From the NCBI RefSeq assembly GCF_000724545.1, contig NZ_JHBV01000140.1:1-47645 (forward strand): DNA of 47,645 nt. The letters run 5' to 3'. The notes beneath the pieces were generated by a model. It was not told the origin of the DNA, ran no database searches, and saw nothing but the letters and a program-made list of their open reading frames with translations. This document shows positions 28,369-47,645 of this stretch, piece by piece. Made by a program: the position numbers and the translations under genes. The first letter of the stretch is position 1, and every line of letters starts with the position of its first letter. Source of the stretch: Aureispira sp. CCB-QB1 (GTDB lineage Bacteria; Bacteroidota; Bacteroidia; Chitinophagales; Saprospiraceae).

Positions 28369-28414
28369 ATTTAAGGTTTCATTTTATTGATTTCTTTAGT
28401 TCTCCCTGATGCTC

Positions 28415-28603: not shown

Positions 28604-28640
28604 TTAAAAAAGGGTTTCATGAAATTTTAGCTTTTAATGA

Positions 28641-28707
28641 TGCACAGCGGTCTTGTGTATGTTCGTGGCGGGCTTTTACCCGACATGAACACATACAGTT
28701 GTTCTGC
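28641..28707 (-). repeat. attC-like site (array 1, site 3, short form)
   Basis: A 67-bp imperfect hairpin: GTTCGTGGCGGG-CTTTTA-CCCGACATGAAC at its centre, and right box GTTCTGC (28701-28707) matching GCAGAAC at 29388-29394 across the next gene. Lacks the inserted long palindrome. The left AAC has decayed (CACAGC). Confidence 0.65.
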
Positions 28708-28723
28708 TTAGTATTTTTTCTTT

Positions 28724-29380
28724 TTATTTAATTTCATTTCCAATTATATAGGTATCAATATCAATTCCTAAATTCAATTTATTCAACCTATTTATTGTCT
28801 CAATTTCAAATCCAACTCCTGCATTTCCACTTATGTATTGATGTCGGCAAACTGAAATATATGCATTTGAATTTTCACTAAGTTTTAGAACTCCTTCAAT
28901 ATCCTTTTCCAATTCATCAAGAAGCAATTCCAATTTTTCGTCTAACCCATAGGCTTCATTCTTTATCGGCTCGAAATTTACTCGGCTGAAATCGTATTTT
29001 AATTTTCCATTCTTTCTAAAATCTCCTTTTGACCAACCCTGTAATGGCTTAAACTCTCTAATGAATTTTGAAAGTTCTTTAAATGACAGTTTTTCTGATG
29101 TTGCCGTCAGGTAAACTCTATGTCCCGATTCTGTCCAAACGAATTCCACTTCTATTTCGGGTTCTTTCGTTAAATGGATTTCTATGAAATATCTTTCGTC
29201 TTTTACTTCGATATAAACTACTACTTTATTCTCGAAAAAATTTTCATTTACTCTGGCGACTTTCGGCTTTCCACTCTCCATTTTTATTTCGCAGACTTTG
29301 AGATACTGCTTTGTAGTCTCAAATTTTGGATTGAGAATTTCCTCAATAGCCTTTTCGATATATTGGTTTTCTTTTTTCAT
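28724..29380 (-). CDS. Cassette gene: DUF4279-like protein
   Basis: 218 residues, cytoplasmic. The C-terminal 90 residues (ISVCRHQYISGNAGVGFEIE, then LNKLNLGIDIDTYIIG) resemble DUF4279: a strand set, a GxGFxI turn, a helix and a final IDIDxYxxG strand. A similar strand pattern earlier (YFIEIHLTKEPEIEVEFVW) may be a first copy of the fold. Function unknown; relatives occur in accessory regions and near toxin genes. The cassette borders are the matched boxes GTTCTGC and GCAGAAC. Confidence 0.6.
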   Translation of the reverse strand: MKKENQYIEKAIEEILNPKFETTKQYLKVCEIKMESGKPKVARVNENFFENKVVVYIEVKDERYFIEIHLTKEPEIEVEFVWTESGHRVYLTATSEKLSFKELSKFIREFKPLQGWSKGDFRKNGKLKYDFSRVNFEPIKNEAYGLDEKLELLLDELEKDIEGVLKLSENSNAYISVCRHQYISGNAGVGFEIETINRLNKLNLGIDIDTYIIGNEIK

Positions 29381-29387
29381 TTATTGA

Positions 29388-29585
29388 GCAGAACGTGAGT
29401 GTCTATGGCATAGAGAAGGGCAAAACCCGCCCGTATTCTGTACTCAATATAGCAAAATCACAGATTTTGCGGATAAATTTTTTGACGCTTTTCGAAAAAT
29501 CTGTGATTTTTCGCCCCCAAGAGCAAAGACTGAATTTTAGGGTATTCCCTGCCCCCCATGAACATAAACATATTGTTATGTACAG
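29388..29585 (-). repeat. attC-like site (array 1, site 4, long form)
   Basis: Left box GCAGAAC (29388-29394) pairs with the start of the DUF4279-like cassette. The interior holds two copies of GCAAAATCACAGATTTTGC-like text around TTTTTTGACGCTTTTCG. Right box GTTATGTACAG. Its partner CTGTACATAAC is not in the following sequence, so the upstream cassette is incomplete. Confidence 0.65.
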
Positions 29586-29946
29586 ATTTTCATTTATTAG
29601 GAGGAATCCTTATTTAGAGCTTTTAGTTGTTCTATCGGGATTTTATAATAATCGAAACTTATGGATTAAGCTGCTTTTTTGTAGGAATTTCAATAGAAGG
29701 CATTGTTGTTGGTCTGGATGACAGTCGCCACCTAGCAGAAATGAAATACACGAATGAGAAAGGAGAGGAAGTTGTTGCAAAAGTAAATTATTTGAAATTA
29801 ACTCGAAAGTAGTCGTTAAGCTTAATTTTAGATAATAGAGGGTAAGTTTCATTGAAGCTTATCCTTTATTTTTTTAGACTGAAAAAGTATGTTAAAATTG
29901 GCAATAATTTGATATTTTTGATATTGAGTTATAAACCTTATCTACC
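29586..29946. other. Region upstream of array 1, possible gene fragment
   Basis: The only open frame is on the plus strand at 29627-29812 (61 codons, TTG start), ending EKGEEVVAKVNYLKLTRK. It may be the C-terminal end of a lost gene or chance. No attI-like site or integrase gene was recognised here. Confidence 0.3.
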
Positions 29947-30504
29947 ATGAAAAAAGCCATTATATATATCATAGCAATCAACCTTTCCCAAATCATTCGT
30001 TTTTCACCACTGATTCTCATCACAGGAATATTGAATTCCTGCTATATTGGGGAGCATAGCACAGAGCGCCAAAGAGCTATAAAGATTAATGTAAAAGAAG
30101 CAAAAGGATTAGTATTGAAAATCGAAGAATACATTCCTGAAAATGATTCTCTTACTTTTTTGGATATAACATTTCACAATCCAACAGATTCACATCGGAC
30201 AGCTTATTGGTATAACTTTAATTATGCTAAAAATAAAATTCCGTTAAGCCTCAATATCTCTGTAAAAGAGAAAAATGGTGATTATCTATGGCATAAATTC
30301 ACTATGTCTTATTATATGGATCCAGGAGTGTATAAGATGTATAAAAAGTATACTGAGCAAATAGATATAATGCCAGGAAGTACCTTTAAAAGAAGAGTAG
30401 AATTAAATTGGATAGGAAAAAAGAAAGGAGAGTATGAGTTTACACTTCATTATTTTAGGGATGTTTTGGAGTCAAATACTATAAATGTAAGTGTTAAATA
30501 TTAG
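29947..30504 (+). CDS. Hypothetical lipoprotein
   Basis: 185 residues. A long hydrophobic N-terminus (about 14-33) ends in LNSC (Cys32), suggesting a lipoprotein, although the charged start is unusually long. The remainder is a beta-sandwich-like domain with IPENDSLTFLDITFHNPTDS and a late IDIMPGSTFKRRVELNW, typical of Ig-like or DUF-type accessory proteins in Bacteroidota. No family assigned. It stands alone on the plus strand; an integrase remnant follows. Confidence 0.6.
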   Translation: MKKAIIYIIAINLSQIIRFSPLILITGILNSCYIGEHSTERQRAIKINVKEAKGLVLKIEEYIPENDSLTFLDITFHNPTDSHRTAYWYNFNYAKNKIPLSLNISVKEKNGDYLWHKFTMSYYMDPGVYKMYKKYTEQIDIMPGSTFKRRVELNWIGKKKGEYEFTLHYFRDVLESNTINVSVKY

Positions 30505-30523
30505 TATTATATTATTCAGATGG

Positions 30524-30580
30524 TGTAGGTCAATCATGGTTGTTTTGATTTTAGGTTATCGTAATATTGAGGACTGCCTA
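30524..30580 (-). pseudogene. Tyrosine-recombinase fragment (Tyr box)
   Basis: The minus strand reads SSILR-stop-PKIKTTMIDLH, matching SILQHSKIETTMIYLHLS (residues 357-374) of the intact recombinase. The catalytic Tyr is changed to Asp and a stop is present. The 57 bp are diverged more than the other remnants. Confidence 0.6.
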
Positions 30581-30588
30581 CTTTTTGC

Positions 30589-31284
30589 TTATCTAGGTGA
30601 ATTGTAGAAATGGCATAAAACAAAGAACATTTTTGTAAGTAAGGCATAAGTATAAATGTCGGATAGCCTGGTTTTAACAGATAAAAAGTGTCCTTTTGAA
30701 TGCAAATTCTGTATAAGTTCATCCTTTAAAACAGTTGACATTTGCTCCCATTCATCGTAGTCCAAGTTATTATTCAGTCTTATGGAAATCTGAGCTGAGA
30801 AATGATATTTATCTACTTCAATATTAGAAAATAACAGACCTTCAGAATAAACGATATATTCTAATTCATTTTCATCAACCAAAGCATTAACAGCTTGTTT
30901 TAGTTTATCCTCTTTTATCTTGAGCAATTTTTTCTCATAGTTTATCAAGGTAGTATCACACGCCCGAAGCAAAGAGTTAAAGGTTATTTGCCACTCCTGG
31001 AGTTGACGTTCTAAATCAACTAAGAGAAAAGGATCCCCCAAATCACATCTATCACTCTGTTCTAAAACATCTTGATAAAAATCTTCTATTTCTTTACGTT
31101 GAGGGAGAAGAACAGAATCCTCTAGGTAATCGACAAGGCTTTGTAAATCTTCTTTTATCCATGTTTGCAATACTATATTTTTATTGACGTAAGCAGTATC
31201 AATAATTCCTACTTTAGTGGATTGTCCTACCGTTACAGTATTGATAGACAACATCAAAGACATAAGAAGTATAATAATTAACAT
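30589..31284 (-). CDS. OmpH/Skp-like periplasmic protein
   Basis: 231 residues. Signal peptide (about 1-20) followed directly by KVGIIDTAYV, the hallmark start of OmpH/Skp chaperones. The middle (about 40-140) is a long helical arm (EIEDFYQDVLEQ, ERQLQEWQIT, KKLLKIKEDKLKQAVNALV), then VDENELEYIVYSEGLLFS, the expected end of the Skp body. The last ~70 residues have no counterpart in Skp and may come from fusion to unrelated DNA. It lies opposite the T-rich hairpin at 31314 and near recombinase debris. Confidence 0.75.
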   Translation of the reverse strand: MLIIILLMSLMLSINTVTVGQSTKVGIIDTAYVNKNIVLQTWIKEDLQSLVDYLEDSVLLPQRKEIEDFYQDVLEQSDRCDLGDPFLLVDLERQLQEWQITFNSLLRACDTTLINYEKKLLKIKEDKLKQAVNALVDENELEYIVYSEGLLFSNIEVDKYHFSAQISIRLNNNLDYDEWEQMSTVLKDELIQNLHSKGHFLSVKTRLSDIYTYALLTKMFFVLCHFYNSPR

Positions 31285-31313
31285 AGATTTATTATTTAGG
31301 TGGACAAAAATAG

Positions 31314-31349
31314 TTAGGGTAGCTGTGAAAAAGAATAAAGCTACCCTAC
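31314..31349. terminator. Bidirectional terminator hairpin
   Basis: TTAGGGTAGC and GCTACCCTAC around a 16-base loop, 36 bp after the recombinase stop (minus strand). On that strand it is followed by TATTTTTG. Confidence 0.65.
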
Positions 31350-31384
31350 TTAGGATAAATTTAACCTACCCTAAAAGATGAGTT

Positions 31385-32548
31385 TTACCAATCCACCCCA
31401 TCCAAAGCATCATTCACCACCTTATTGGAAAGGTGCAAATAAATCATAGTTGTTTCAATCTTAGAATGCTGTAAAATCGACTTCAGAACATGTAATGGAA
31501 TTTTAGAAGCTAAATGAGTCGCAAAGGTATGCCGAGCCACATGGCTGCTAATTGCCTTATTAATCCCAGCACGAGCCGCCAACAATTTCAACGTTTGATT
31601 AAAATATTGATTGGTATATTGATGAAAAACTAGGACATGAGGAGCTGCGCCAGAAATCAAATGTTTTTGGATGAGCTGCTCAGGTTTCTTCAAGTGCAAT
31701 TTGTACAAAGGAAGTAAAAGTTGCTTGCCTGTCTTTTGGGCAATGATGTTTAGGAGCAGACCTTCTTTTTCCTGTTCAATGTTTTGGTGTTGAATATTAC
31801 AAGCATCTGAAAAACGCAAACCTGTATAACAAGAAAACAAAAACATATCTCGAATTAACTCCAGATAAGACTCTTTGGGAGAAAAACTCAAGGCTTCTAG
31901 GCGCTCGACTTCCTCCCAGACCAATACTAGGCGCTCAGTAGCGACCGTTTTAGGCTTAAATTTTAAGTATGGATTTTTATGCGCTTCAAAACTTCCTTTA
32001 CTAATAGCCAAATTAATGTATTTGCGTACTTGTTTGTGATGTGTGAATACGGTATTGGTGTGCAAATTCTTTTTATATAAGAAGGTATCAAAATCGTGAA
32101 TCAAGTTAAAATTCAATTCTGAGAATTGAACATCTTTTCGAAAGTCAGTCCAATGATTGAGCGCAGCTTTGTGTTTCCCCTTCGTTTCTTTAGATAGTTT
32201 GGTATCTGCAGCAAGTTCGCAACGCCAAAAGTCAGTAAAAGACTCTACATCTTCATAACGAAAGAAATCTTCTACCTGGTTAATAGTAATGACGCCGTTC
32301 TTTTTGATGCAATCCAAAGCAAAGGCTTCTAGTGCATTAATTTGTCTTCTAATTTCAGCATTGTATTGAAAAGTGTTGGGATGATCAATAACTTGCTTGA
32401 GTCGTTTGCTCCATTGAAAGGGGGTAACGTAAATTCCAGTAGAGAAGAATTTACATTGGCCTTTTGTGTAAGCTCTGATTTGAATCAGTCCAGTTCCGTT
32501 CTTTCGGAGTTTGTTTTTGTAGTTGTGGACAACAGAAAATTGAATCAT
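31385..32548 (-). CDS. Tyrosine recombinase, Bacteroidetes arm-binding/SAM-like type
   Basis: 387 residues, intact. N-terminal arm DNA-binding domain (1-90, with GTGLIQIRAYTKGQCKFFST), SAM-like core-binding domain (about 100-200), and a catalytic domain with R245 (YTGLRFSD), K272, H336-V-A-R339, H361 and nucleophile Y370 (TTMIYLHLS). All catalytic residues are present. This is the type used by conjugative transposons and genomic islands of Bacteroidota and is not an integron integrase (no IntI-specific insertion). It is followed by a terminator hairpin. At least four decayed copies of its 3' end lie elsewhere in the window. Confidence 0.95.
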   Translation of the reverse strand: MIQFSVVHNYKNKLRKNGTGLIQIRAYTKGQCKFFSTGIYVTPFQWSKRLKQVIDHPNTFQYNAEIRRQINALEAFALDCIKKNGVITINQVEDFFRYEDVESFTDFWRCELAADTKLSKETKGKHKAALNHWTDFRKDVQFSELNFNLIHDFDTFLYKKNLHTNTVFTHHKQVRKYINLAISKGSFEAHKNPYLKFKPKTVATERLVLVWEEVERLEALSFSPKESYLELIRDMFLFSCYTGLRFSDACNIQHQNIEQEKEGLLLNIIAQKTGKQLLLPLYKLHLKKPEQLIQKHLISGAAPHVLVFHQYTNQYFNQTLKLLAARAGINKAISSHVARHTFATHLASKIPLHVLKSILQHSKIETTMIYLHLSNKVVNDALDGVDW

Positions 32549-33065
32549 AGTTTGTTCTTTTTTATAGAAAGCTACGGAAAAAGCCTTCTATTTGGTGAAC
32601 AAACGAAGAACAAAAAGCCCTGTAAACAGATGTTAACAGATGTAAAAGAGAGAAAAGCGAACAAAAAACAAAAGCAGCATTAAACGGCTGAAACAGCGAT
32701 ATAGCCTATGTTTTATACTGCTAAATGTAGACTTTTGACAGTCTGAGTAGCGCCCACAACAGTATGAGTAATGCATTTTATATCACTCTGTGAACGAATA
32801 AGATAAGAAAATTGTTTTATTTCGGGTACTAAAGTAGGGCAAAAAATAAATCTCCTTTTTGTACTAAAGTAACATGCTGTTAATAGGCTTTAATATTAGG
32901 TATTTGTAGGTGGATTTCTTAATACATAAAGATGCATATTGTGTATTATTTTTTATCCGTATTCGTTGTTCATTATTTAAAATAATATTTTTGTGAGTAA
33001 AATTGGCATAAATAAACTTGTTAAAAGCTAATAATATTTTAAACATCTTCATTAATATTTAACTC
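32549..33065. other. Intergenic region upstream of recombinase and T9SS gene
   Basis: 517 bp between two divergent genes. It contains AT-rich promoter-like DNA but no clear -7/-33 pair, no attC-like palindrome and no RNA gene that I can recognise. Confidence 0.4.
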
Positions 33066-36690: not shown

Positions 36691-37251
36691 AGTAACTATT
36701 CTCAAATTTGGGGGCATTATAAGTTCGGTTATTATTCGTGGTTTAATAAAATATAAGTTCGTAGTTAGATCTTTTATTAATATTGCAAGAAAGCTCCTAA
36801 AAAATCATCTTTTTGATAGTAATTCTTAAAAGTTAGTTGGTAGACTACTCTAAAAAACCTTGTCTATAAACAAGGAGGGCTATCTATATCCTTATGGGAA
36901 GAAAAAGGGGGGAAACATGATTTTACCAAGAACCAAAGAGCGATGAATATGGCAAAAAAGATATCAATAAGGATGGAATTGGATCTATTTTTCAAAAAAA
37001 GAGCCTTCTAGAACAATGGGCGACTAAGCGCTAATTTATTGAAATTACACAAGAGCTATTTTACGAACTGTACTCGGGGTGTTCAGTGCAACAACACGAT
37101 AAAATTAGTGGGGTCTCATGGACCCACTTAATTTTGATCGCTAATTGTTGTAGCCTGTTTTTTTATAATTTTTACCCGTATTTTAATTGATAAAGCTTTG
37201 GCTTTTATGATAACAAATGTGTAATAGCGCATATTTTGCTGCTTTATTACT
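36691..37251. other. Intergenic region, no recognised gene
   Basis: Short reading frames only. A stem-loop with GTGGGGTCTCATGGACCCAC at about 37108-37132 may be a terminator or structured element. The stretch 36890-37035 is open in one plus frame for about 45 codons without a recognisable product. Confidence 0.4.
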
Positions 37252-37536
37252 CTATTTTCCATCAATACGGAGTTTTTCATATGAGTTGGAGAAATGATTT
37301 ATGTTAAAATCAGAAAACAACTTCATTACATTTTTATATTTAGTAGTGAATCTCAGAGGATGTCCATCAGCTAATGTTAAAATAGCTAATTGCCAGTAGG
37401 CAAATCCTCTGGTATATTTTTGCATTTAAAAATAGCCTTTGAAATTTAAATATAAAGGTTTAAGAGCAACATCAAATTCAAAATAAAAAAGCCCTTTCTC
37501 TAGCTGGTTTAAGTAAAGTACAGCTGCTGGCTTCAT
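37252..37536 (-). other. Two small in-phase open frames separated by one stop
   Basis: The minus strand has a 36-codon frame (37426-37536, MKPAAVLYLNQLEKGLFYF start) and, right after its TAA, a 57-codon frame starting ATG (37252-37425; MQKYTRGFAYWQLAILTLAD, KYKNVMKLFSDF). They are in the same phase, downstream of the GNAT gene. Either a broken gene of about 94 codons or two small proteins. No family recognised. Confidence 0.35.
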
Positions 37537-37570
37537 CTTAAAAATAAAGCTTTTCATACATGGATATTTA

Positions 37571-38125
37571 TCAACAAGACTCCTCTACATCTAAAAACCA
37601 AAGAAAGTACAAAGAAATATGTTTCTGGACGATCCAATCTGACTGATGGACTATAAATAAGACGATCTCTGAATGAGAAGACAAACATTCAAATCCTAGT
37701 CGCTTAGCTAGTTTTTGGCTAGAAATATTACTTGGCTCACATTCAATGATAACAGACTGGATTTTTTCTTCTTCAAAGACCTTGGAAATAAGCAAAGAAC
37801 AAGCCCTTGTCATATAGCCTTTCCCCTGTGCTCCTATCCCCAAAAAATAAGATAATTTGACCGTTTGATTTTCCATTTGTCCACTATGCAAACTAACTTG
37901 CCCAATGAGTTGTTGGTTTAACCAAATGCCATACTGCTCTTCTCCCCAATAAAAATCACTTTGTTCATGCTGGGCAATATGCTCTTTTGAAGCAGCAATA
38001 GAAGCTATCTTGCCCCAAGAAGGAAGCCACTCCTCTAGTACAGTTTGAGAAGTGGCAATAAGGTGATATAGATGCTCAGCATCTGTTTGCACTTGTAGTT
38101 TTTTTAAATAAACCTCATAAAGCAT
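37571..38125 (-). CDS. GNAT acetyltransferase, RimJ/RimL type
   Basis: 184 residues. Acetyl-CoA-binding motif A with LGIGAQGKGYMTRACSLL, and motif B NISSQKLAKRLGFE; the start VYLKKLQVQTDAEHLYHLIA is typical of RimL-like Ser/Ala N-acetyltransferases. It is the third gene of a minus-strand operon, 5 bp after the OTU-like protein gene. A role in modifying or neutralising the neighbour's product or a host protein is possible but not shown. Confidence 0.88.
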   Translation of the reverse strand: MLYEVYLKKLQVQTDAEHLYHLIATSQTVLEEWLPSWGKIASIAASKEHIAQHEQSDFYWGEEQYGIWLNQQLIGQVSLHSGQMENQTVKLSYFLGIGAQGKGYMTRACSLLISKVFEEEKIQSVIIECEPSNISSQKLAKRLGFECLSSHSEIVLFIVHQSDWIVQKHISLYFLWFLDVEESC

Positions 38126-38130
38126 TTTTC

Positions 38131-39657
38131 CTAAGCATCATTTTTACTCATTGGACTAAAATGAACATTATTGGCATTGTGGATATAAATGGTTGTTCCC
38201 CCACCAAAATTATACGTCCAATTATCCATTAAATTTCCCTGTGTAAAAAAGATATTCACATCATTAGGATCTTGATTTAACGCTACTAAAATTTCTTCTA
38301 GAACTCGCTGATCATTATACAAAAACTGATTTGCTTGCGCCAAGCCAGCATCAATCAAAGCCTGTCGAATTTCAGCAATTCGCTCTGCGGAGGTATTTAA
38401 ACCAAGTGCAATACGAATAGAATCAATAAGGCAATTCAATCCTTCCCCACTAGCCGATCCAACGATAAACGATTCCCCATTAACATCAATGGCCGAATCC
38501 CAAGTAAAATTTTTCCATTTAAAAAATAACCCTCCATATCCAATACGCTTCATATAGCGCTTAAACTCCTCTTGCCTTTCTTCACTTTTTTGGGTATCTT
38601 GATGTTCCCAATCCTTCTTTAGATAAGATAAAAAAGCTGTATTAATCGTTGAATCATCCTCAACAATAGGATGCCCATGATCTCCATCTATACGCACACA
38701 TTGTGTCTCTTCTCCCCTATCTGCGCCAACAACAAACGGAAATTTATGTATATTTTCATTGCCTGCTGTCACCCAACCATAAGTACGAGCATAATGTTCC
38801 AATTTTCTGACCTCAATAGGATCTGTCGAGTCATACTTTGCAGCTCCACCATTGGAAGAATCTACTTTGGCAGATTTTAAAATACCTGTTGAGCCATCCT
38901 TTTTTCTTAAGTGTTTACCATCATGAGGGAATGTTTTTAAATCACCCATTTTTTCAATCATATCCCGCTCAACCTCATCCATTCGGTTTTCGACTAATTC
39001 AGCATCTTCTGCGGTGCTACTGTCGATCTCCTCTCCAAAACGTTGCTTAGCGTCTTCTTTATAAGATTGGGTTCTATTGTAATCATATATCTGAGCTATG
39101 AAGGTAATCGTGTCATCTGCCTCCCTCCTGTATTCTACCCATTCTCCATCTAAAAGACCAACATAAGTGGCATTAGCTTCGTCAATACACATTTCACATT
39201 TTATATCATCAAAACGACCAATAATATGGTCACGATAATAGTCATTATAAGCTTCAATTAACTTATTCAAATCGTTATAGACCCCTCGCAAACTATTCAT
39301 CAAATCAGAAGCTCTTTCATTACCTTGAATTGCTTGCATTTGCTCCTTTGATGGGTCAAAAACCTCTCTTAAACTTCTTAAGTTTCCTATTTGAATAAAT
39401 GCTTCACACAATGCCAAATATCTATTTTCTAATAACGTCCAACGGTCTAAAAGCCCTGTTCTTGTCTCTACCTCTATTATTGACTCTATCTTCGCTTTAA
39501 GAATCATTAATTCTTGATAAACGCCCTTTATTTTATTTTTTTTTGTTTTAGGATCTACCTTTAATAAATTAGTCGCATTAGCTCCTGTGATAGACTCTAA
39601 TTGATGCCTTATCATATCTCTAATTGCCTCCGAAAAATTTATATCATTATTTTGCAT
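38131..39657 (-). CDS. Large protein with OTU-like cysteine-protease C-terminus
   Basis: 508 residues, no signal peptide. Residues about 1-150 are helical and coiled-coil; about 150-330 is a mixed region; the last ~130 residues look like an OTU/papain-like protease: SGEGLNCLIDSIRIALG with candidate nucleophile C409, and NNVHFSPMS with candidate H499. This layout (helical delivery part plus terminal protease) resembles polymorphic-toxin or contractile-injection effectors. The upstream gene (39701-40738) and the GNAT gene downstream are 43 bp and 5 bp away on the same strand. The family call rests only on the two motifs. Confidence 0.6.
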   Translation of the reverse strand: MQNNDINFSEAIRDMIRHQLESITGANATNLLKVDPKTKKNKIKGVYQELMILKAKIESIIEVETRTGLLDRWTLLENRYLALCEAFIQIGNLRSLREVFDPSKEQMQAIQGNERASDLMNSLRGVYNDLNKLIEAYNDYYRDHIIGRFDDIKCEMCIDEANATYVGLLDGEWVEYRREADDTITFIAQIYDYNRTQSYKEDAKQRFGEEIDSSTAEDAELVENRMDEVERDMIEKMGDLKTFPHDGKHLRKKDGSTGILKSAKVDSSNGGAAKYDSTDPIEVRKLEHYARTYGWVTAGNENIHKFPFVVGADRGEETQCVRIDGDHGHPIVEDDSTINTAFLSYLKKDWEHQDTQKSEERQEEFKRYMKRIGYGGLFFKWKNFTWDSAIDVNGESFIVGSASGEGLNCLIDSIRIALGLNTSAERIAEIRQALIDAGLAQANQFLYNDQRVLEEILVALNQDPNDVNIFFTQGNLMDNWTYNFGGGTTIYIHNANNVHFSPMSKNDA

Positions 39658-39700
39658 TTATATCTTGGTTTTAATTTGCCTTTGAATAAAATAAGTTGGA

Positions 39701-40738
39701 TTATAGTTTCTCCTCTATTTGAGCAGCCAATTGGGTAGCATTTTCTAGGTTGCTTCCCTCTACTTGATTAAAGAATTGTTCCAATACTCCCTTAATCTGA
39801 TTAAAGGTCTTGCTAGCTTCTTTATAATCCGCTACCATTTGTTTGAGTATCTCCCCAAACTCCGACTTATTGTGTTCTTTGACAAATTTGGTCCATTCAC
39901 TAATTCGCTCTTTCATATCCTCCAGATGGTTTTCAATAATAGAAACATCCCGAATATCCCCGCTAGAGAGCGATTGATAAAAGCCATTTCTGTGTTTTAA
40001 TGTTCTAGCATAGAGCTTTTCTTCCCTTGCTTTTAGACCATCCACCTCACTTTCATCCCCTTCTTTTGCTTTTTTCCGCTTCTCGAAAAAGGCTTCAAAC
40101 TGTTGAACCGTCTTTTCAATTTTAGCATGTTTCTCACTCTGAGCAGCTCCGTTGGCATGGGCAGCTCTCCATTGACGACATAGACGTTTTAAACGCTTTA
40201 GTGCTTGATCTTTTTCTTCTACTTTTTCCTTATTTTTTTGGGGCTGAACATAGAGTTTGGCATATTTCTCTATGCCATTTTCAATCATTTCTAATGGAGC
40301 TTCTTCTGGTACTTGGCTAGCCGTAGCAGCTTCAGCAGAGACCGTCTTTAAATCAGGCAATTCACTAACAAACTCAATATAGATGTTTGATTTTTTGAGT
40401 TCTTTATTTACTGCTTTGATGGTACTATCTTTGGCACCTTTGCCCACTTCTGGCAACATTTTGATCGTAAATCCCTCGCCTAAAGGCTCAACAAAACAAC
40501 GCCCAGCTACAAACGTTTTTTCTGCTTTTTGTTCTTTTTTAAAGTTTTTCCAACTTTGAGGCGTTTCTCCCAAGTATACAAAAGGCATGGGATCTGTCTC
40601 CTTAAACTCTGCATCCAATTTTAAAATAAACTCACAAATTCCCCCTGTATTTTTGCCTAAAAACTCCCTCAATAACTTTCTATATTGAGGATGTTTAAAG
40701 CCTTTTATACTATTAACATCTTTGAACTTTTTTTTCAT
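39701..40738 (-). CDS. Coiled-coil hypothetical protein (operon with OTU-like protein)
   Basis: 345 residues, cytoplasmic. A globular N-terminal part (about 1-135, with FVYLGETPQSWKNFKKEQK) is followed by long charged helices (about 165-340, with EKVEEKDQALKRLKRLCRQW and later heptads). No known family recognised. First gene of the minus-strand trio with the OTU-like protein and the acetyltransferase; it may be a chaperone, carrier or scaffold for the protease-like protein. The trio starts near an attC-like site. Confidence 0.6.
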   Translation of the reverse strand: MKKKFKDVNSIKGFKHPQYRKLLREFLGKNTGGICEFILKLDAEFKETDPMPFVYLGETPQSWKNFKKEQKAEKTFVAGRCFVEPLGEGFTIKMLPEVGKGAKDSTIKAVNKELKKSNIYIEFVSELPDLKTVSAEAATASQVPEEAPLEMIENGIEKYAKLYVQPQKNKEKVEEKDQALKRLKRLCRQWRAAHANGAAQSEKHAKIEKTVQQFEAFFEKRKKAKEGDESEVDGLKAREEKLYARTLKHRNGFYQSLSSGDIRDVSIIENHLEDMKERISEWTKFVKEHNKSEFGEILKQMVADYKEASKTFNQIKGVLEQFFNQVEGSNLENATQLAAQIEEKL

Positions 40739-40854
40739 GAAAAAATTGGTTTATGATTCAATAAAATATACAAAACACCAATATATGTATATTTATTGCA
40801 ATGGGTGTTGAATTCCTATGGCTTTTATTCCTGAGGTCGCAATTTTGTTGAATT

Positions 40855-41014
40855 GAGCATAATGTCTGGCTATATAACGTGCCACAAGTTATGCGAACAG
40901 AAATATAAGTATTCCCAAGAGCAAAATCTGCGATTTTGCGGTGTTAGACACGCCACTTGAACTTTAGCTTTAGCCCTGAACTGTATTATTGACATATAAC
41001 GCCGTGTTGTCTTC
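40855..41014 (-). repeat. attC-like site (array 2, site 1, short form)
   Basis: Right box GTTGTCTTC (41006-41014) is the exact inverse complement of GAAGACAAC at 42584-42592. The interior has a single GCAAAATCTGCGATTTTGCGGTG palindrome and TTAGCTTTAGCCC. The left box is GAGCATAAT, one base off GAGCATAAC. Confidence 0.75.
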
Positions 41015-41019
41015 AGTAT

Positions 41020-42564
41020 TTATTTGCAATTATTTTTTAACAATATCTGGACTTCATCTCCATATAATTCTGTAAATCCAAGTTCTAAAGCTTTATTCAG
41101 ATTAATGCATGCTGTTTCTTTTTTATTTTGAGCAATCTGAATTAATGCTAAATTCTTGTATGTATAACAATTATTTGGGAAATAAGCTAATGATTCTTTT
41201 ATATCATCTATGGCTTTATCATACTCACCTAATTGATATTTTGCATAGGCCCGATTATTATATGCTCTACCGATTGTAGCATCGTCAGGTTGCAAGTTTA
41301 TTATTTTATTAAAGAAGAATATTGCTGAGTCTGGCTTGTTATTTTCCAAATAATGAAACGAAATAATATCTAGAGGAATTGAATTACTGGAATCTACAGA
41401 AATAGCTTTTGTACACGTTTCAACTAATTTATCTCCTTCTTTTAGAAACTTATAGTTTAGGGCTTGAAAAATATATGCATCAATAAGATTTGGGAATTGT
41501 TTTAATATTTGATGAAGTATTTTTTCTGAGGTTCTATATTCTTGTAAGTGAAAATATAGTTTGCCTTTTAATAATTTAGGGCTGCTTTTTGAATTGTCAA
41601 GCTCAATAAGTCTATCAAGTATTTCAAGGGCTTTTTCTTTCTCTTTTTTTACGACATAATAGGTGCTTATTTTTTCACCTAACGAAGTAAGGTTAGATTC
41701 AATAGATAGTATTTCTTCTATTGTTTTGTAAGCCTTATATTTATCTATCTCGTAATCAATTTTAGCCATAATAAATAAATATTCAGGATTATTAGAATCA
41801 CTTAATAGTAGGACTTTTATAATCTTTTTAGCTAAATCATATTGCTCTGCTTTTATGAGATAAAGGAAGAAAGTATGAAAATCATCAATGTTATTAATTT
41901 TTTTATAATCTAAAGGTATAATAACCCCTTTATAGGCACATTCAAGATTTAGTGTGGTAGAATCTATTTTTGTGATAAACAGTTGCATTCTATCTCCCTC
42001 TTTAAATTGAGGTATTGTACCGACAGATTTTATATAATCTGCAACTTTAATACAAACCTCTTGAGAGTTTAGTTTGAAATAGACTATAGATTGGTCTATT
42101 TCATTTACTTCTACTAAAATAGAGTCATTTAAGAATGCAATAGAAGATTCTAATTTATATAATCCAGTAAAATATTTTTGGCAATTATCATTTTCTTCCA
42201 TGACAGGCGGAAGATTTAATGGATAATTCATGAATCCCGAAATGATGTTAAATGCTTCACAATCTTTTTTTAGTTCAGTGGTTATATTAAGACCATAATC
42301 TATAATTTTTTGCTCTTGATTTGTATCATATATAAGACTTGTTTTTTTCTTATCCATCACTTTCTTATATAAATACTGGACTTCTTTTAGTTTAAAACAC
42401 TTATTCACTTGATTGGTGAGAGAATCTCTATCTAAATTTTTGTTATCATAGGTTATTTTTGATAGACAATTACAAGCAATATTATTAAGACTATCCAATA
42501 AATTTTGGGAATAAGAGTTTGTGGAAATTGAACAGAATAATACTAAGATAATATTTTTGATCAT
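41020..42564 (-). CDS. Cassette gene: secreted TPR protein
   Basis: 514 residues from 42564, taken because it gives a signal peptide (MIKNIILVLFCSISTNSYSQ); the ATG 51 bp upstream lies in the cassette leader. A Cys pair (ACNC) begins the mature N-terminal domain. Residues about 230-510 are tetratricopeptide repeats (AKYQLGEYDKAIDDIKESLA, PDDATIGRAYNNRA, ETACINLNKALELG). TPR proteins act as protein-interaction scaffolds; partner unknown. The cassette's start and end boxes match exactly over nine bases. Confidence 0.82.
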   Translation of the reverse strand: MIKNIILVLFCSISTNSYSQNLLDSLNNIACNCLSKITYDNKNLDRDSLTNQVNKCFKLKEVQYLYKKVMDKKKTSLIYDTNQEQKIIDYGLNITTELKKDCEAFNIISGFMNYPLNLPPVMEENDNCQKYFTGLYKLESSIAFLNDSILVEVNEIDQSIVYFKLNSQEVCIKVADYIKSVGTIPQFKEGDRMQLFITKIDSTTLNLECAYKGVIIPLDYKKINNIDDFHTFFLYLIKAEQYDLAKKIIKVLLLSDSNNPEYLFIMAKIDYEIDKYKAYKTIEEILSIESNLTSLGEKISTYYVVKKEKEKALEILDRLIELDNSKSSPKLLKGKLYFHLQEYRTSEKILHQILKQFPNLIDAYIFQALNYKFLKEGDKLVETCTKAISVDSSNSIPLDIISFHYLENNKPDSAIFFFNKIINLQPDDATIGRAYNNRAYAKYQLGEYDKAIDDIKESLAYFPNNCYTYKNLALIQIAQNKKETACINLNKALELGFTELYGDEVQILLKNNCK

Positions 42565-42583
42565 GGTAATTTTAGATTTTATT

Positions 42584-42786
42584 GAAGACAACGGCTTGCG
42601 CATATAGCGTGACACAAGTCATGCACCACTAAATATAGTCGTTCCCCGAGCAAAATCTATGATTTTGCCAGTAAATTTTATTTTCGTCTAGTGGCAAAAT
42701 CATAGATTTTGCGGTGCTTTACATGCGTTCATTCTTATAAAGCTGTTCCTGGAACGTGGCATGAATATATGCGCCTTGTTATCGAC
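42584..42786 (-). repeat. attC-like site (array 2, site 2, long form)
   Basis: Arms ACAACGGCTTGCGCATATAG and AATATATGCGCCTTGTTATC pair. Inside, GCAAAATCTATGATTTTGCC and GGCAAAATCATAGATTTTGC flank AGTAAATTTTATTTTCGTCT, giving two palindromes that also pair with one another. Confidence 0.85.
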
Positions 42787-43116
42787 TGGCTTCTTATAAT
42801 AATTGTTCCATTGGATTAGTTTAGGCAATTCTCAATAAATAATGACTCCACTTTTAATCTTATTTCACTGTGCTTAAGCTTTTTTAAAGCTACGTTTTAG
42901 AATTATGGGGTAGTTTTTTTGTAATTTGCCTTAGTGTTTTTTCCAAAGTTTTAGGGCACAAAAAAGCAAAAAATAAGATAGAAAAACGAAGAAATTTTGT
43001 AACAATTTCACACAAATTTAAAAACGGGGGAGGGAATAGAAGTTTTTCAAGAACGAGCAATATTACTAGAATTTTCCCCTTGCCAAAAAAATAAAGATAC
43101 AACATCTTAATCTACA
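42787..43116. other. Cassette 3' tail between RDD gene and attC
   Basis: 330 bp inside the cassette of the RDD protein. A minus-strand frame at 42890-43105 (71 codons, hydrophobic then basic) is possible but has composition like non-coding AT-rich DNA; I do not call it a gene. Confidence 0.4.
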
Positions 43117-43524
43117 CTAAAATTTGTCCAATATTTGGGAAGTATCGCATGTTTCAGAATCAATAACATAAGTTTTTGAAATTGTATCATGCCAAGCTTT
43201 AGAATCATAGCCTAAGGCTAAGGATGTAAATTCTAATGGAATCCACCTACATAGGAATCTAATTGTTGCAGTTTTTATACTAATTTTGCTTCCGTCATAA
43301 TTAACTACTTCCGAATTAGTAAAATATTTGCCAACAGTTTTTCCAAAAAGATACTCAAGCGGTATGTAATAACCACCAAAAACAAGAGCCAATCTTAATA
43401 TTCCCCAAAATCTTTCAGCCCCCCAAAAAACTTCTAAATAAAGAGTAGTTTCTAAGAGGAGAAGAATAGTAAAAACATCGATTATAAAGTTTATAAGGCG
43501 TTTCTTTTTAGAAGTTTCTTTCAT
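43117..43524 (-). CDS. Cassette gene: RDD-family membrane protein
   Basis: 135 residues with three hydrophobic segments. The RDD signature is present: basic start then RLINFIIDVF (D16), a GKTVGKYF box, and RFLCRWIPLEF (second Arg/Pro box), ending WHDTISKTYVI. RDD proteins are small inner-membrane proteins of poorly known role, some linked to ion exchange. The cassette is bounded by GTTATCGAC and GTCGATAAC. The gene start is about 145 bp from the cassette start, with no SD-like sequence. Confidence 0.82.
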   Translation of the reverse strand: MKETSKKKRLINFIIDVFTILLLLETTLYLEVFWGAERFWGILRLALVFGGYYIPLEYLFGKTVGKYFTNSEVVNYDGSKISIKTATIRFLCRWIPLEFTSLALGYDSKAWHDTISKTYVIDSETCDTSQILDKF

Positions 43525-43668
43525 GTTTTATGTGCTTTAAGTTTTTTTTCAGAGGATTGTAGCAAAACACTTTCATTCTTGATACAATTTTTTGCTAGCT
43601 TTAGAGATAAACAATTTATTGATTTTCTATTATATGTTTTTTCATAGCTTAGAATTTTTGTTTTGCTT

Positions 43669-43872
43669 GTCGATAACGGCAGTGCATAGACAGTAGCGAA
43701 AGGGCAGCGCTCTTTCGTCAAGCTCCCACAATATAGCAAAATCTGTGATTTTGCGGATATCTTGCTTCAGATGACTTCCGCAAAATCACAGATTTTGCGA
43801 CCCCAGAAGTAAAAGATAAGCTTCATGGCTAAGCACGAAACTCGCTATTGCTCTGTGCACATTGTTATGCTC
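43669..43872 (-). repeat. attC-like site (array 2, site 3, long form)
   Basis: Left GTCGATAACGGCAGTGCATA, right TCTGTGCACATTGTTATGC. Interior has GCAAAATCTGTGATTTTGCGG and CCGCAAAATCACAGATTTTGC around ATATCTTGCTTCAGATGACTT. Confidence 0.85.
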
Positions 43873-44560
43873 AGTTTTTTAATACTATTTTGCCATGTTC
43901 ATAATAGCTGAGAGTGCTTTTGTGATAATGAAAATAGATACCTTTTCCTTTTTTAGTTTTCCTGTATTTTTTAGGTTTATAACCATGTCCAGAAATAATT
44001 TGGGGAAGCGAGTCTTTTATCAGATTAAGTTTTACTTCATATTTTATTTGATTGATGGTGAGGAATAGTGAGTCTTTTTTAGGAGGCTTACATCTCTTCT
44101 TTTTATCAATTAGTACTTTTCTTTCTAATCGATAATATTTTTCATCTGATACTCCATTTATTGATTTATAGTATTTCTTTTTCATATAGGTCGTATCATT
44201 TACACAGCTATTTCTTTGGATAAATTTTTTAATATGGATTGTATCTTCTTCAAAGTAAAAGCTATTTTTTAAGGAGATGAAGCTTCCATCTTTGTTTAAT
44301 GGTATTTCAATTTCTGCAGAATCACTTTCGATTTTAAGCCTGGAGTAATACATAGGTCTTCTTTCCGCTAATACATACTCTTCAATCCTTTCTCCGAATC
44401 CTCCAAAACCTTGGTTTTTAATATTTATGATAAAAGATAATCCTGGATTAGAATTTTGGAAAACGATAGTGTCAATTATGAGGACAATATCTTTTGATTG
44501 GGCTAGAGATATATTGAATTGAATAACTATTAGGAAGAAGATGTAAATTAAACGATTCAT
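43871..44560 (-). CDS. Cassette gene: secreted hypothetical protein
   Basis: 229 residues with a signal peptide (1-20, ending ISLAQ). The mature protein is beta-rich, with a NQGFGGFGERIEEY glycine stretch, two Cys (C119 and C157), and a very basic C-terminal third (GHGYKPKKYRKTKKGKG). No recognised domain. The stop lies inside the attC-like site, so the gene uses the whole cassette. Borders GTTATGCTC and GAGCATAAC match exactly. Confidence 0.7.
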   Translation of the reverse strand: MNRLIYIFFLIVIQFNISLAQSKDIVLIIDTIVFQNSNPGLSFIINIKNQGFGGFGERIEEYVLAERRPMYYSRLKIESDSAEIEIPLNKDGSFISLKNSFYFEEDTIHIKKFIQRNSCVNDTTYMKKKYYKSINGVSDEKYYRLERKVLIDKKKRCKPPKKDSLFLTINQIKYEVKLNLIKDSLPQIISGHGYKPKKYRKTKKGKGIYFHYHKSTLSYYEHGKIVLKN

Positions 44561-44584
44561 TTTAGAGTTTTGTGGGGTTCAATT

Positions 44585-44786
44585 GAGCATAACGGCTGCG
44601 CATATGATGTGCTAGAAGCTATGCGCTGAACAATATAGCTTTTCCCGAAGCAAAATCACAGATTTTGCTAGTAATTTTTTCTTCGTGGTACTAGCAAAAT
44701 CTGTGATTTTGCGGTGTTAGACATACGCTCTGCCTTTTTCTTTAGCCCAACCTGCTAGGATAGCCATATGCGCTTTGTTATCGATA
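44585..44786 (-). repeat. attC-like site (array 2, site 4, long form)
   Basis: GAGCATAACGGCTGCGCATA against CCATATGCGCTTTGTTATC, with inner GCAAAATCACAGATTTTGC and its complement-like copy GCAAAATCTGTGATTTTGCGG. Confidence 0.87.
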
Positions 44787-44810
44787 GTCATTATTTTGAT
44801 TCCAAATCAT

Positions 44811-46082
44811 TTATTTACAGAGTTCATCCCATACCTTCTTAACTTCTAATATATTATCATAAAAAGTATTTACAACTCCAGACATATCATCTATATAGAA
44901 TTGATTCCAACTATTTTCATATACATTCCAACCAATTTTTGTTGAGTTGTAATCATACTCATCTAACTTTAAAAAGATCCAATTACTGGAAGAGTCTATT
45001 CTATTTTGAAGCTTCGTTTCTTCAAATTTTGCATATAAAAAGTCTTTTAAATCACTATCGTTATGAGTAAAAACACCACATATGAATTTTCTAAAATCTT
45101 GAATTTCAATTGAAAGTTTTACTTCTGTTTGGTTATGTAGAAGTAGGTGTTTTTGATACCTGAAACCAAAGTTTTTATGATTTGCATCTTCAATAGTTGC
45201 TTTTTTGTTTACAAGTTTGACAGGGACCCAATCATTGCCTTGAGAGTTTAATTTTTGATATAAGTCCTCAATAAAATTTTTACGTAATTTTGCAGTAATT
45301 GAATATAGCAAATCATTGATATGGTTTGTTAACAGAGATAATTGTTCAAGTTTTTCTGAAAGAATAATCTCATCTTCTTTTAAATTACCTTTCAAGCTTA
45401 ACTTTTCTTTGATTTTATTTTTTATTTCACTATTCATTTTTTTGTCTTTTTTTCTAATGTTTAGAAGCCTCTCAAGATAGTCTAAATAAAGAGTTAATGA
45501 GTTAACAAAAATTTTATCTTTTATCCTACATTTCTGTAATACTTCATCTTTTATCCATGGGAAAATGTCTTTCATGTAGTTTATTTCGAAATAACGAGAT
45601 TCAAATATTTTTCTGTTTTTCGTTGAAAAACTCGAAATAGGAGGAGAGCCTCCATTTCTGGTAAGATAAAGAACATAGATTTTTTCTTTTGGATAATTGA
45701 GCTGTTGAACCTTTTGTATGTATCTATCAATTTGCTCTTCTTGGTCAGTTGCAAAATGAATTTTATTTTCTATTATTACAGCATAGTCTGAATCTTTTAT
45801 TAGAATATCTATTCTGCTCTCTTCTGATGTAATAATCGGCGTTTCTACTTTTAGATCTAGAGATAGATACTCAAAGAAAGATTTTAGAAAGGTGTAGAAG
45901 CCAAAGTCTTGGTATTGGAGGATGTTGGACAGAATTATGCTGTGAGCATTTTCATTAACTTTTAAGGATTCTAAGATATTGTAATCAAAGGACTTGTTTT
46001 TCGTTTTCAACTTTAGGAAGTTGAATATTTCATCGGAAAAATCTAAAAGTTCTGTGTATGCTTTTGAATTCATGTTTTTCAT
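44811..46082 (-). CDS. Cassette gene: PD-(D/E)XK nuclease-superfamily protein (PDDEXK_4-like)
   Basis: 423 residues from the ATG at 46082. A longer frame open to 46244 was rejected because its first ~15 codons are the attC arm itself. Nuclease core: E44-N-A-H then SIILSNILQY (typical first motif), D92 in ESRIDILI, and E105-N-K107 in VIIENKI, giving D-x12-E-x-K, followed by a helix with YIQKVQQLNY and VLYLTRNG. The C-terminal half (about 200-423) is a second domain with no recognised fold. PDDEXK_4 proteins are frequent in defence islands and mobile cassettes; a DNA-targeting defence role is plausible but not shown. Confidence 0.85.
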   Translation of the reverse strand: MKNMNSKAYTELLDFSDEIFNFLKLKTKNKSFDYNILESLKVNENAHSIILSNILQYQDFGFYTFLKSFFEYLSLDLKVETPIITSEESRIDILIKDSDYAVIIENKIHFATDQEEQIDRYIQKVQQLNYPKEKIYVLYLTRNGGSPPISSFSTKNRKIFESRYFEINYMKDIFPWIKDEVLQKCRIKDKIFVNSLTLYLDYLERLLNIRKKDKKMNSEIKNKIKEKLSLKGNLKEDEIILSEKLEQLSLLTNHINDLLYSITAKLRKNFIEDLYQKLNSQGNDWVPVKLVNKKATIEDANHKNFGFRYQKHLLLHNQTEVKLSIEIQDFRKFICGVFTHNDSDLKDFLYAKFEETKLQNRIDSSSNWIFLKLDEYDYNSTKIGWNVYENSWNQFYIDDMSGVVNTFYDNILEVKKVWDELCK

Positions 46083-46199
46083 ATTGATTAAACGAATCAA
46101 TGTATTGTTGCAAATCAATTTTTTTAACTTTTGATGAATATAGTGGATTTTTAGCTTTTTACCTTGTAGTTCACTATCTAAGTTTTGGGAGAGGGAAAT

Positions 46200-46359
46200 T
46201 ATCGATAACGGCAGCGCATACGCCTGTGCGAATGTTATGCGCAATGAATATAAGCATTCCCTTGAGCAAAATCTACGATTTTGCGGTGTCTCACAAAAGC
46301 CGAGGTTTTAGCTTTAGCCCCATATCTAGCATGGTCGTATCGGCGCATTGTTATGCGGA
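46200..46359 (-). repeat. attC-like site (array 2, site 5, short form)
   Basis: TATCGATAACGGCAGCGCAT left and CGGCGCATTGTTATGCGGA right. The left box is the complement of GTTATCGATA at 44777. Single inner GCAAAATCTACGATTTTGCGGTG palindrome. Confidence 0.82.
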
Positions 46360-46382
46360 GTTTTATTTTATTAGGCAAAGGT

Positions 46383-47051
46383 TTAATTTAGTAAGGGAGG
46401 TAGACTGCTGAATATTTCTACTGTAAAAGACCAAATAGCATGAAATGTACTTTCATCAATAGCCAATCTTGTGGCATTAGATAAGAATAACCCAATGAAT
46501 AACATTTTCCAGTCTTTTTTTGTAAACTTTTCACTATTGGCTTTTTCAACACTTTCGTCTAAATCTTTAGATAATTCAGTTTTTTGAAATTCAGAAAGTG
46601 AGGTTTCATTTATCATTTTCTTGATTTCTTTAACAGCCTCTGATAATTTTAAAATTTCATCAGGAGTAAACGGTTCATCGGAATCAGGGATGTTCATATT
46701 TACTTTCCCAACCTGTTCTTTTAAGTTTTCCCATTCATCGGGAACGATTGTTTCACTAGCAAGCCAATCTATCCAGAGTTTTATGATTTTTATAGCATGA
46801 TTGATGTCTTTTGCAGAATAGTTATCTTTCCATTCTTTCTGGCCTGGACTACACGTACAGTCAACTTTTCCATCGGCTTGGTTTATAAGTTTAAAATAGA
46901 AATACCTAGACTTTTCTTTTTTATATTCTATAACAGCACTTTGATTTGAGTTTTCAATGAATTCAAAGTCAGTAGGAGAAAACTTTGTCTCTTTAATAAT
47001 TGCGAATATTTCGTTTCTTTGAGATCTTCTTAGTGGGATATGATTTTTCAT
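46383..47051 (-). CDS. Cassette gene: hypothetical protein with hydrophobic C-terminus
   Basis: 222 residues. N-terminal part (about 1-85) is an alpha/beta region with a CTCSPG pair; the middle (about 115-180) is strongly helical (EILKLSEAVKEIKKMI, then ELSKDLDESVEKAN); the last ~40 residues are hydrophobic (WKMLFIGLFLSNATRLAI, FTVEIFSSLPPLL). This order resembles AbiTii-like and other phage-defence effectors that end in a membrane-active helix, but I cannot assign a family. It is the first cassette, nearest the integrase remnant; borders GTTATGCGGA and TCCGCATAAC match over ten bases. Confidence 0.65.
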   Translation of the reverse strand: MKNHIPLRRSQRNEIFAIIKETKFSPTDFEFIENSNQSAVIEYKKEKSRYFYFKLINQADGKVDCTCSPGQKEWKDNYSAKDINHAIKIIKLWIDWLASETIVPDEWENLKEQVGKVNMNIPDSDEPFTPDEILKLSEAVKEIKKMINETSLSEFQKTELSKDLDESVEKANSEKFTKKDWKMLFIGLFLSNATRLAIDESTFHAIWSFTVEIFSSLPPLLN

Positions 47052-47146
47052 TTAGCAAGAGGTCTTATTTACCATTTTTATCTAAAATCAAGATTAAGAA
47101 AGGTAATAATAATATTTGAATTTTGCTAAACTGAGTTTATGATAAT

Positions 47147-47256
47147 TCCGCATAACTACTTGCTAAACGCAATAGTCTATTGTGTTTATTTCTAAAAAAG
47201 AGATATCCTAAATTATTAAAAAATCTAAAGGACTAGCAATTTTTTTTAAATTTTGT
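47147..47256. other. Candidate attI-side junction of array 2
   Basis: TCCGCATAAC (47147-47156) is the start box of the first cassette. The DNA beyond, up to the recombinase fragment, carries a hairpin AAACGCAATAG-T-CTATTGTGTTT at 47166-47188 and no attC. By position it would hold attI or its remains. Confidence 0.4.
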
Positions 47257-47396
47257 TTAGAGATATGAGTATAAAATTTCAGTAGTTTTAATGGAATTAT
47301 GTCCTAGTAAGGTTTGAATATATCTTAAATTGACGCCTCTTTCCAATAAATGGGTGGTAGAACTATGTCTCAATGTATATATAGTTCGTTTTTTTC
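47257..47396 (-). pseudogene. C-terminal fragment of an XerC/IntI-like tyrosine recombinase
   Basis: The minus strand reads [20 protein letters not shown] then [14 protein letters not shown] and ILYSYL-stop, about 44 codons: the R-H-S box, the LGH box and the Tyr end of integron- or XerC-type recombinases, with a one-residue insertion before the expected Tyr and Y in place of the first His of HxxR. A TGA closes the frame just upstream, so the rest of the gene is missing. It is transcribed in the same direction as the cassettes. An integron integrase cannot be told from XerC by this part alone. Confidence 0.75.
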
Positions 47397-47399
47397 AAT

Positions 47400-47645
47400 T
47401 CAAGTCAACAACTTCCCATACTCAGCAATCCTCCCAGCCCGATCCAAACGATTGACCACCTGCCTCGCCTTATAAAAGTCCTGGCGTTTTGTATTAATAA
47501 AATCCTTCAAAGCAAGCCCCGTAAAAGAACCCTGCATCATGCCATAAACCAAAATACGAGCTGCATAAGTTGGCTGCAGTGCTAGATCAGGCTGATTGAC
47601 AAAATCCACCCGAAAGACCCGAGCCATCTTTTGATAATTCTCCAA
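47400..47645 (-). CDS. Peptidoglycan-hydrolase-like protein (GH19/endolysin type), partial
   Basis: The window edge cuts the gene; only the last 81 codons are present. The text DFVNQPDLALQPTYAARILVY, then GSFTGLALKDFINTKRQDFY and ARQVVNRLDRAGRIAEYGK matches the C-terminal end of GH19-like chitinase/endolysin domains (PDLAL, GxFTG, NARRxVN, IAxYGK pattern). The active-site Glu residues are outside the window. Such enzymes cut glycan chains and occur as phage lysins or effectors. The stop lies 4 bp before the recombinase fragment, which suggests a recombination joint there. Confidence 0.8.
   Translation of the reverse strand: MENYQKMARVFRVDFVNQPDLALQPTYAARILVYGMMQGSFTGLALKDFINTKRQDFYKARQVVNRLDRAGRIAEYGKLLT

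Follow-up and report, generated by a model that had tools for sequence, protein, structure and literature searches.

An integron-like cassette array in Aureispira sp. CCB-QB1, most likely built by an integrase that appears to lack the IntI-specific insert

The stretch of DNA studied here, called the window, is the entire contig C140 (47,645 bases) of Aureispira sp. CCB-QB1 (G000), a draft genome of 7.37 Mb. Between positions 40855 and 47156 it contains an array of five cassettes with recombination sites of the attC type. All genes lie on the - strand, and the + strand is thus the bottom strand of the attC sites. At the right end, the array borders on an attachment site (attI), followed by the remnant of a tyrosine recombinase gene of a family that we call patchless, since its members appear to lack the additional domain (I2, or IntI patch) of the integron integrase IntI. 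The features of the locus are, from attI outward:

47208-47399, - strand: decayed patchless integrase, C-terminal remnant, co-oriented with the cassettes; upper end approximate
47154-47195, - strand: attI, insertion point of the newest cassette; far end approximate
46350-47155, - strand: body of cassette 1; gene 46383-47051, 222 amino acids, no Pfam family above cut-off; boxes GTTATGCGGA/TCCGCATAAC
46201-46358, + (bottom) strand: attC of cassette 1, by attC covariance model and fold
44777-46208, - strand: body of cassette 2; gene 44811-46064, 417 amino acids, PD-(D/E)XK nuclease PF14281; boxes GTTATCGATA/TATCGATAAC
44585-44785, + strand: attC of cassette 2, by covariance model (176 bits) and fold
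43864-44592, - strand: body of cassette 3; gene 43871-44560, 229 amino acids, without Pfam match; boxes GTTATGCTC/GAGCATAAC
43669-43872, + strand: attC of cassette 3, by covariance model and fold
42778-43676, - strand: body of cassette 4; gene 43117-43524, 135 amino acids, RDD family PF06271; boxes GTTATCGAC/GTCGATAAC
42584-42786, + strand: attC of cassette 4, by covariance model and fold
41006-42591, - strand: body of cassette 5; gene 41020-42564, 514 amino acids, tetratricopeptide repeat protein; boxes GTTGTCTTC/GAAGACAAC
40855-41014, + strand: attC of cassette 5, the last of the array, by covariance model and fold; far box degenerate (AAT)

The original prediction, made from the sequence of the window, described five integron cassettes whose end boxes are exact inverse complements within each cassette, a pattern that simple repeats could not produce. 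We found all five pairs at the predicted places, with 7, 6, 7, 7, and 7 matching bases beyond GTT/AAC in cassettes 1 to 5, respectively, whereas the 20 cross pairings of boxes between cassettes share only 0-5 bases. Among 400,000 random GTT/AAC pairs of the window, at least six shared bases occur in 0.06% and at least seven in 0.02%. All five cassettes are thus bounded by G^TT and carry matching R''/R' boxes. The description needs one correction: the outermost attC (40855) ends with AAT instead of AAC, so that its far box is degenerate and the array ends there. The five attC sites at 40855-46358, having only an integrase remnant as neighbor, form a cluster of attC sites lacking integron-integrases (CALIN); an attC cluster is defined in the accessible part of PMC9668308 as two or more attC sites separated by less than 4 kb. 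The functions of the cassettes are putative; the protein of cassette 2 matches the PADLOC candidate defence family PDC-S26 (E 1.1e-32).

A search with an attC covariance model had been proposed as a check, and we ran it with a model (R1) built from 15 sites of the genus itself. All five sites of the window were recovered; they contributed to the model, and the bit scores of contributing sites are high by construction. At E <= 1e-9 the model yields 66 matches in the 24 sources searched. One internal loop is 1x2 in 53 of these sites and 2x2 in the remaining 13; its bottom-strand 3' arm has two bases. Known attC sites likewise carry their extrahelical bases on that side. The alignment of the 66 sites (65 distinct rows) is fitted to the structure model and thus leans toward covariation; 90.3% of its cells pair, against 81.5% in shuffles and 32-46% in slid controls, and its stems contain 199 double-sided cells, against a shuffled mean of 70. 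A separate alignment of 12 sites (MAFFT and RNAalifold) shows double-sided changes in 15 of 37 pairs. Folded with DNA parameters, three of the five window sites form long hairpins on the + strand (-40.6 to -45.2 kcal/mol). The other two, which are short, reach -18.4 and -25.5 kcal/mol, and neither has a clean single hairpin as its lowest-energy fold. Folding attC sites with a conserved structure, as expected of an integron, are thus present. In other families, the sites form similar hairpins of about 64-196 bases, some without a clean fold, and energy favors the bottom strand in most of them but not in all. An Rfam scan gave no match above the gathering score, and its eight weak matches were taken as chance.

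A palindrome (GCAAAATC...GATTTTGC) is repeated within attC bodies and may be a separate element of its own. Model matches to inner attC parts are also found remote from the arrays, at 11335-11499 of the window and on contig C148 of the same genome.

The insertion point of attI reads GTT on the - strand (AAC at 47154-47156 on the + strand), followed by TACTTGCTAAACGCAATAGTCTATTGTGTTTA. Its counterparts were found in G002, a same-species genome of two contigs. Homology of attI to three G002 copies (L029, L031, L032) starts at the AAC or within three bases of it, and the sequences differ beyond. The flank of attI (47154-47643) is 99.2% identical to G002 5,253,268-5,253,757, with other cassettes beyond. 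The integrase remnant next to attI has a disrupted frame with one internal stop and has lost its N-terminal part; its positions 47245-47394 are 76% identical to residues 223-272 of an intact G002 integrase. In both genomes attI thus lies beside the integrase gene, decayed in the window and intact in G002, where two further attI copies have only parts of the gene beside them. Behind two of the G002 integron copies (L029, L031) lies a 9.8 kb duplication (96.5%; C1 5,219,614-5,229,463 and 5,254,189-5,263,997).

The second proposed check, a comparison of strains for gain and loss of cassettes, revealed that the same-species genomes indeed differ at the predicted G^TT points. On the right side of the locus, identity between the window and G002 begins at the AAC of attI; on the left side it stops within an attC, not at a GTT. 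Positions 6009-26355 of the window are syntenic with G002 5,155,000-5,175,666 (98.6-100% in pieces), and the window blocks 29703-32904 and 36842-37172 are present again in the fetched G002 stretches, whereas no match of at least 150 bases to 37173-47150 was found there. G002 5,175,593-5,217,178 contains 25 plus-strand attC-model matches. The whole array was also searched against G002 and seven other genomes of the genus, with scoring of the best 37 first-look candidates from each. This yielded 48 matches at E <= 1e-10, spread over three of the genomes; none lies in genes, and all are on attC bodies or at most about 40 bases away. Two cassettes occur more than once. A 909-base cassette is present twice in G002 (99.6%), 13.4 kb apart and with different neighbors, and its identity extends from an AAC to two bases beyond the next AAC; it, too, is bounded by AAC/GTT. 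A 1,174-base cassette of the G002 array is also present on contig C8 of G000 (99.7%); one of its boundaries falls at TT and the other 11 bases beyond an AAC, inside an attC arm.

These data bear on the possibility that boxes and hairpins are ordinary intergenic repeats which match by coincidence or by repeat expansion. The recurring palindrome would fit such an origin, as would the model matches outside the arrays, which are limited to the palindrome part. Against it stand the own pairs of 6-7 bases, which no cross pair attains and which lie far above chance, the duplication of a complete cassette bounded by AAC/GTT, and the enrichment of box-matched links downstream of the integrase described below. 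We regard an origin from repeats as extremely improbable, and the exclusion of simple repeats in the original prediction is borne out, as is its reading of the locus as an integron array, with attC sites that fold and cassettes that differ at G^TT.

The intact integrase of G002 is a tyrosine recombinase of 283 residues; its gene immediately precedes attI and is co-oriented with the cassettes. Aligned with IntI4 (2a3v chain A), it matches on both sides of the insert and has 20 residues where IntI has 63; judged from this alignment, the insert of about 42 residues that defines IntI appears to be absent, and with it the additional domain around patch III. The PDB entry that it matches best is 4a8e, a XerC-like enzyme. 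It scores 223 bits against TIGR02249, below the cut-off of 265, and 228 bits against NF040815 (recomb_XerA_Arch, "site-specific tyrosine recombinase/integron integrase"), above the required 220. The catalytic K and H motifs are spaced 64-69 residues apart in the patchless family, 67-72 in rows labelled Xer, and 106 in all 19 measurable canonical IntI rows (21 fetched). The motif search has two outliers, L103 (108) and L022 (113), and the protein of L103 (L141 in A4) aligns without insert; a looser pattern, applied to the set of named genomes, gave 106-107 for several proteins without insert by match length, and these values were not used. An AlphaFold model of the G002 integrase has a mean pLDDT (predicted local distance difference test) of 82.6 and a pTM (predicted template modeling score) of 0.61, with residues 256-266 below 50.

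Patchless homologs are widespread. At E <= 1e-40, 73 of the 149 genomes sampled from the order have at least one (79 hits), and at E <= 1e-45, 93 of the 296 sampled from the phylum. Within the genus (nine genomes), an unbroken match of at least 270 residues is found in G002 and G007, and fragments in G000, G003, G004, and G005. IntI above the cut-off was found in none of the nine genus genomes and in one of the 149 genomes of the order (G025, of the same family); in the phylum it occurs in 84 of 296, with 83 of the 84 labelled outside the class.

To find arrays beside these genes, we used a detector that matches the 6 bases after a GTT to those before an AAC opening a hairpin, each match being counted as a link. 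The test set comprised 61 integrase hits, i.e., 59 of the 79 order hits plus G002 and G007; the 20 order hits left out were fragments, weaker hits, or hits with little downstream sequence. Downstream of the integrases (250,536 bases) we found 43 links, compared to 7 upstream (437,703 bases); five shuffles of the downstream sequence in blocks of 60 gave a mean of 0.4. Several chains start about 50-250 bases past the integrase match, at an attI-like motif (approximately TATAAryAAG^TT). Chains or single links with a start about 50-160 bases past the match are those of L175 (seven links), L147, L148, L162, and L029 (two each), and L130 (one). In 20 of the 61 hits, the sequence stops at most 1,250 bases past the integrase gene, as is expected where repeats follow, though such early ends may have other causes. 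A second set of 80 loci from named genomes, which also takes in canonical and Xer-like relatives, has 30 links downstream (365,224 bases) and 6 upstream (460,120 bases): seven in Rufibacter sp. SYSU D00344, four in a Sphingobacteriales metagenome-assembled genome (MAG), three in Algoriphagus ornithinivorans (two with a common end), two each in Flavobacterium aciduliphilum, Aquiflexum sp., and a Bacteroidetes MAG, and one each at ten further loci. The architecture of array and integrase thus recurs in other Bacteroidota.

Two other enzymes could have moved the cassettes. A canonical IntI, since lost or acting in trans, could have made ordinary attC clusters, with the patchless recombinase as a bystander. 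The sites do belong to the general attC type, canonical IntI is present elsewhere in the phylum and in G025, and three genus genomes (G001, G006, G008) have attC-model matches without a patchless integrase. The near absence of IntI from genus and order argues against this possibility, as does the finding that it is the patchless gene, rather than IntI, that stands directly before attI and heads cassette chains in several families; we judge it unlikely. At the canonical IntI locus of G025 (L179), no links were found on either strand, the detector having no positive control on a canonical integron. Alternatively, the host XerC/XerD could move the cassettes, as they do for CTX phage or pdif modules, with the patchless gene as a passenger. 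This is less probable still: the cassette chains of many families start next to the patchless gene, whose product retains every catalytic residue (R139, K164, H228, R231, H254, and Y263 do not vary among 12 members that have one or more downstream links each).

We therefore favor, with considerable confidence, the reading of the window as an integron cassette array built at attI, most likely by a patchless integrase as in G002. Circular cassettes, each with one gene and its attC, would have entered successively at attI (47154). The recombination would be site-specific, take place at G^TT, and involve a hairpin formed by the attC bottom strand; insertion of circular cassettes would give each cassette its own complementary box pair. 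The most probable builder is the enzyme that is intact beside the same attI in G002. The patchless integrase presumably cuts folded single strands, as the enzyme behind the window's remnant would formerly have done. Since the integrase gene at attI has decayed, the array is now a cassette cluster without a working neighboring integrase.

Several observations weigh against this reading. The search for an integrase in the flanking genome, the third check proposed, succeeded only in part: the remnant lies next to attI and its intact counterpart in G002, but G000 itself contains fragments and no intact patchless copy. G001, G006, and G008 have only Xer-like matches (28-34% identity), yet they contain 40, 9, and 9 attC-model matches, respectively (E <= 0.01, both strands). 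No link was detected beside the patchless copy of G007. Where at least 2,500 bases follow the integrase (37 hits), 17 hits have a link and 20 have none, so that many homologs may act otherwise, or their arrays may have been lost or diverged. The seven upstream links (four at L150 and one each at L134, L153, and L171) belong here as well, and links that are single or share one AAC may be chance matches. Finally, both attC strands fold about equally well by minimum free energy, the opposite strand reaching -40.1 to -41.7 kcal/mol in the long sites and -17.3 and -25.9 kcal/mol in the short ones. The predicted folding of the bottom strand thus holds as far as the fold is concerned, but energy alone gives no strand preference, and the identity of the bottom strand rests on gene direction and on the extra unpaired base of the 3' arm.

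The window contains a second, smaller attC cluster on the + strand (26282-29583, about 26.3-29.6 kb), identified by the covariance model and partly by eye, with one box pair (GTTCTGCT/AGCAGAAC, by eye). Its sites are:

26282-26424, + strand: attC, covariance model (weak, 24 bits)
27440-27642, + strand: attC, covariance model
28642-28711, + strand: short attC, by eye only
29386-29583, + strand: attC, covariance model

The 3.2 kb block that follows (29703-32904) contains a frame for a tyrosine recombinase of 400 residues and is 98.5% identical to the middle of the main G002 array. Integrase relatives were also seen on mobile elements. Two Chryseobacterium plasmids (L391, L392) encode a patchless integrase followed by an attI-like ACATATAAACAAG^TT, and such integrons may thus also be mobile. 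Relatives of the integrase further occur on viral contigs (L310-L389, IMG/VR) and in Cellulophaga phages (phage records H21-H30). Among the plasmid records matching at E <= 1e-40, 50 of 71 are from Acinetobacter. On the Acinetobacter indicus plasmid p80-1-2-tetX3 (L390, 5052-7240), a shortened patchless recombinase gene lies about 190 bases before tet(X3), with a small hairpin and then GTT just 5' of tet(X3) and a resemblance to the first half of a Bacteroidota attC just 3' of it. Since the two boxes mismatch, it is no more than a suggestion that tet(X3) originated as a cassette.

According to the accessible parts of PMC9668308, PMC9024848, and PMC2426708, the additional domain both defines IntI and is needed for integron recombination, and PMC4792948, likewise accessible in part, proposes that its acquisition was the step enabling single-strand recombination. 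If an integrase without this patch runs integrons, recognition of a folded attC would not need the domain, and the proposed origin of integrons would become directly testable once a patchless enzyme is seen to recombine attC. Our literature search, which also took in parts of PMC8618304 and PMC8352920 and left most subscription papers outside, brought up no account of a patchless integrase accompanied by cassette arrays. Surveys that require the IntI domain will overlook or mislabel such arrays. On balance, we lean toward the broader view that a Bacteroidota-wide integron lineage uses an integrase without the I2/IntI patch, that IntI arose within or beside it, and that the lineage includes the recombinase-associated acquired interbacterial defence (rAID) arrays and perhaps the setting of tet(X3). 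Recombination of attC by the patchless enzyme would provide a mechanism for a large reservoir of mobile genes in Bacteroidota and a possible explanation for the repeats of gut rAID immunity arrays.

Among known systems, rAID arrays, which reportedly were the subject of a study by Ross et al. in 2019, share with the arrays described here a tyrosine recombinase, co-oriented short genes, and conserved intergenic motifs. They are described for gut Bacteroidales in the accessible part of PMC12247911, where the word integron is absent. A plasmid locus of Parabacteroides distasonis with Tdi1 and SMI1/KNR4 immunity-type genes is, in our reading of the gene names, a rAID system. Its recombinase is 46% identical to the G002 integrase without insert (residues 8-281 over 825 bases), and the catalytic spacing motif gave no match in it. 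At 6 bases, this single locus has 8 links downstream, 0 upstream, and 0.04 in shuffles, with 7 consecutive units, the start pattern having been set after inspection of the locus. It differs in that its units begin with ATT instead of GTT, its intergenic sites are mostly short, and its genes are orphan immunity-type genes, whereas the window cassettes are of other kinds: Pfam revealed no immunity-type family among the five proteins of the window, where the recombinase is a remnant.

XerC/XerD/XerA, including the XerCD-mediated integration of CTX phage, share with the patchless integrase the lack of an I2-like insert and a match to NF040815. We know of no attI/attC cassette arrays associated with Xer. 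In a tree of 46 rows, the Xer-labelled rows stand on a long branch separate from the patchless rows, and IntI forms one clade (100/100) amid the latter. Because the tree has long branches, which may attract, and a very long row (L005), the apparent nesting of IntI within the patchless rows is tentative and should be taken as a lead. An integron-like subgroup of tyrosine recombinases has been described by Smyshlyaev et al. (2021; PMC8138268), in the accessible part of which no cassette arrays are tied to insertion-lacking members.

The closest resemblance is to IntI integrons (sedentary chromosomal integrons, or CALIN when no integrase is near). In both, there is an attI, each cassette consists of a gene and its attC, the junctions lie at G^TT, the boxes match, attC folds with an extra unpaired base, the arrays are large, and cassettes differ between strains. 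The enzymes differ: IntI has the insert and a spacing of 106, whereas the patchless integrases have 64-69 and score below the TIGR02249 cut-off. The intI gene is usually divergent from the cassettes, with co-directional exceptions in some Treponema, whereas the patchless gene precedes attI and has the orientation of the cassettes, both in G002 and in the detected chains. That the system works like an integron is well supported; its integrase appears, from its sequence, to fall outside the IntI family.

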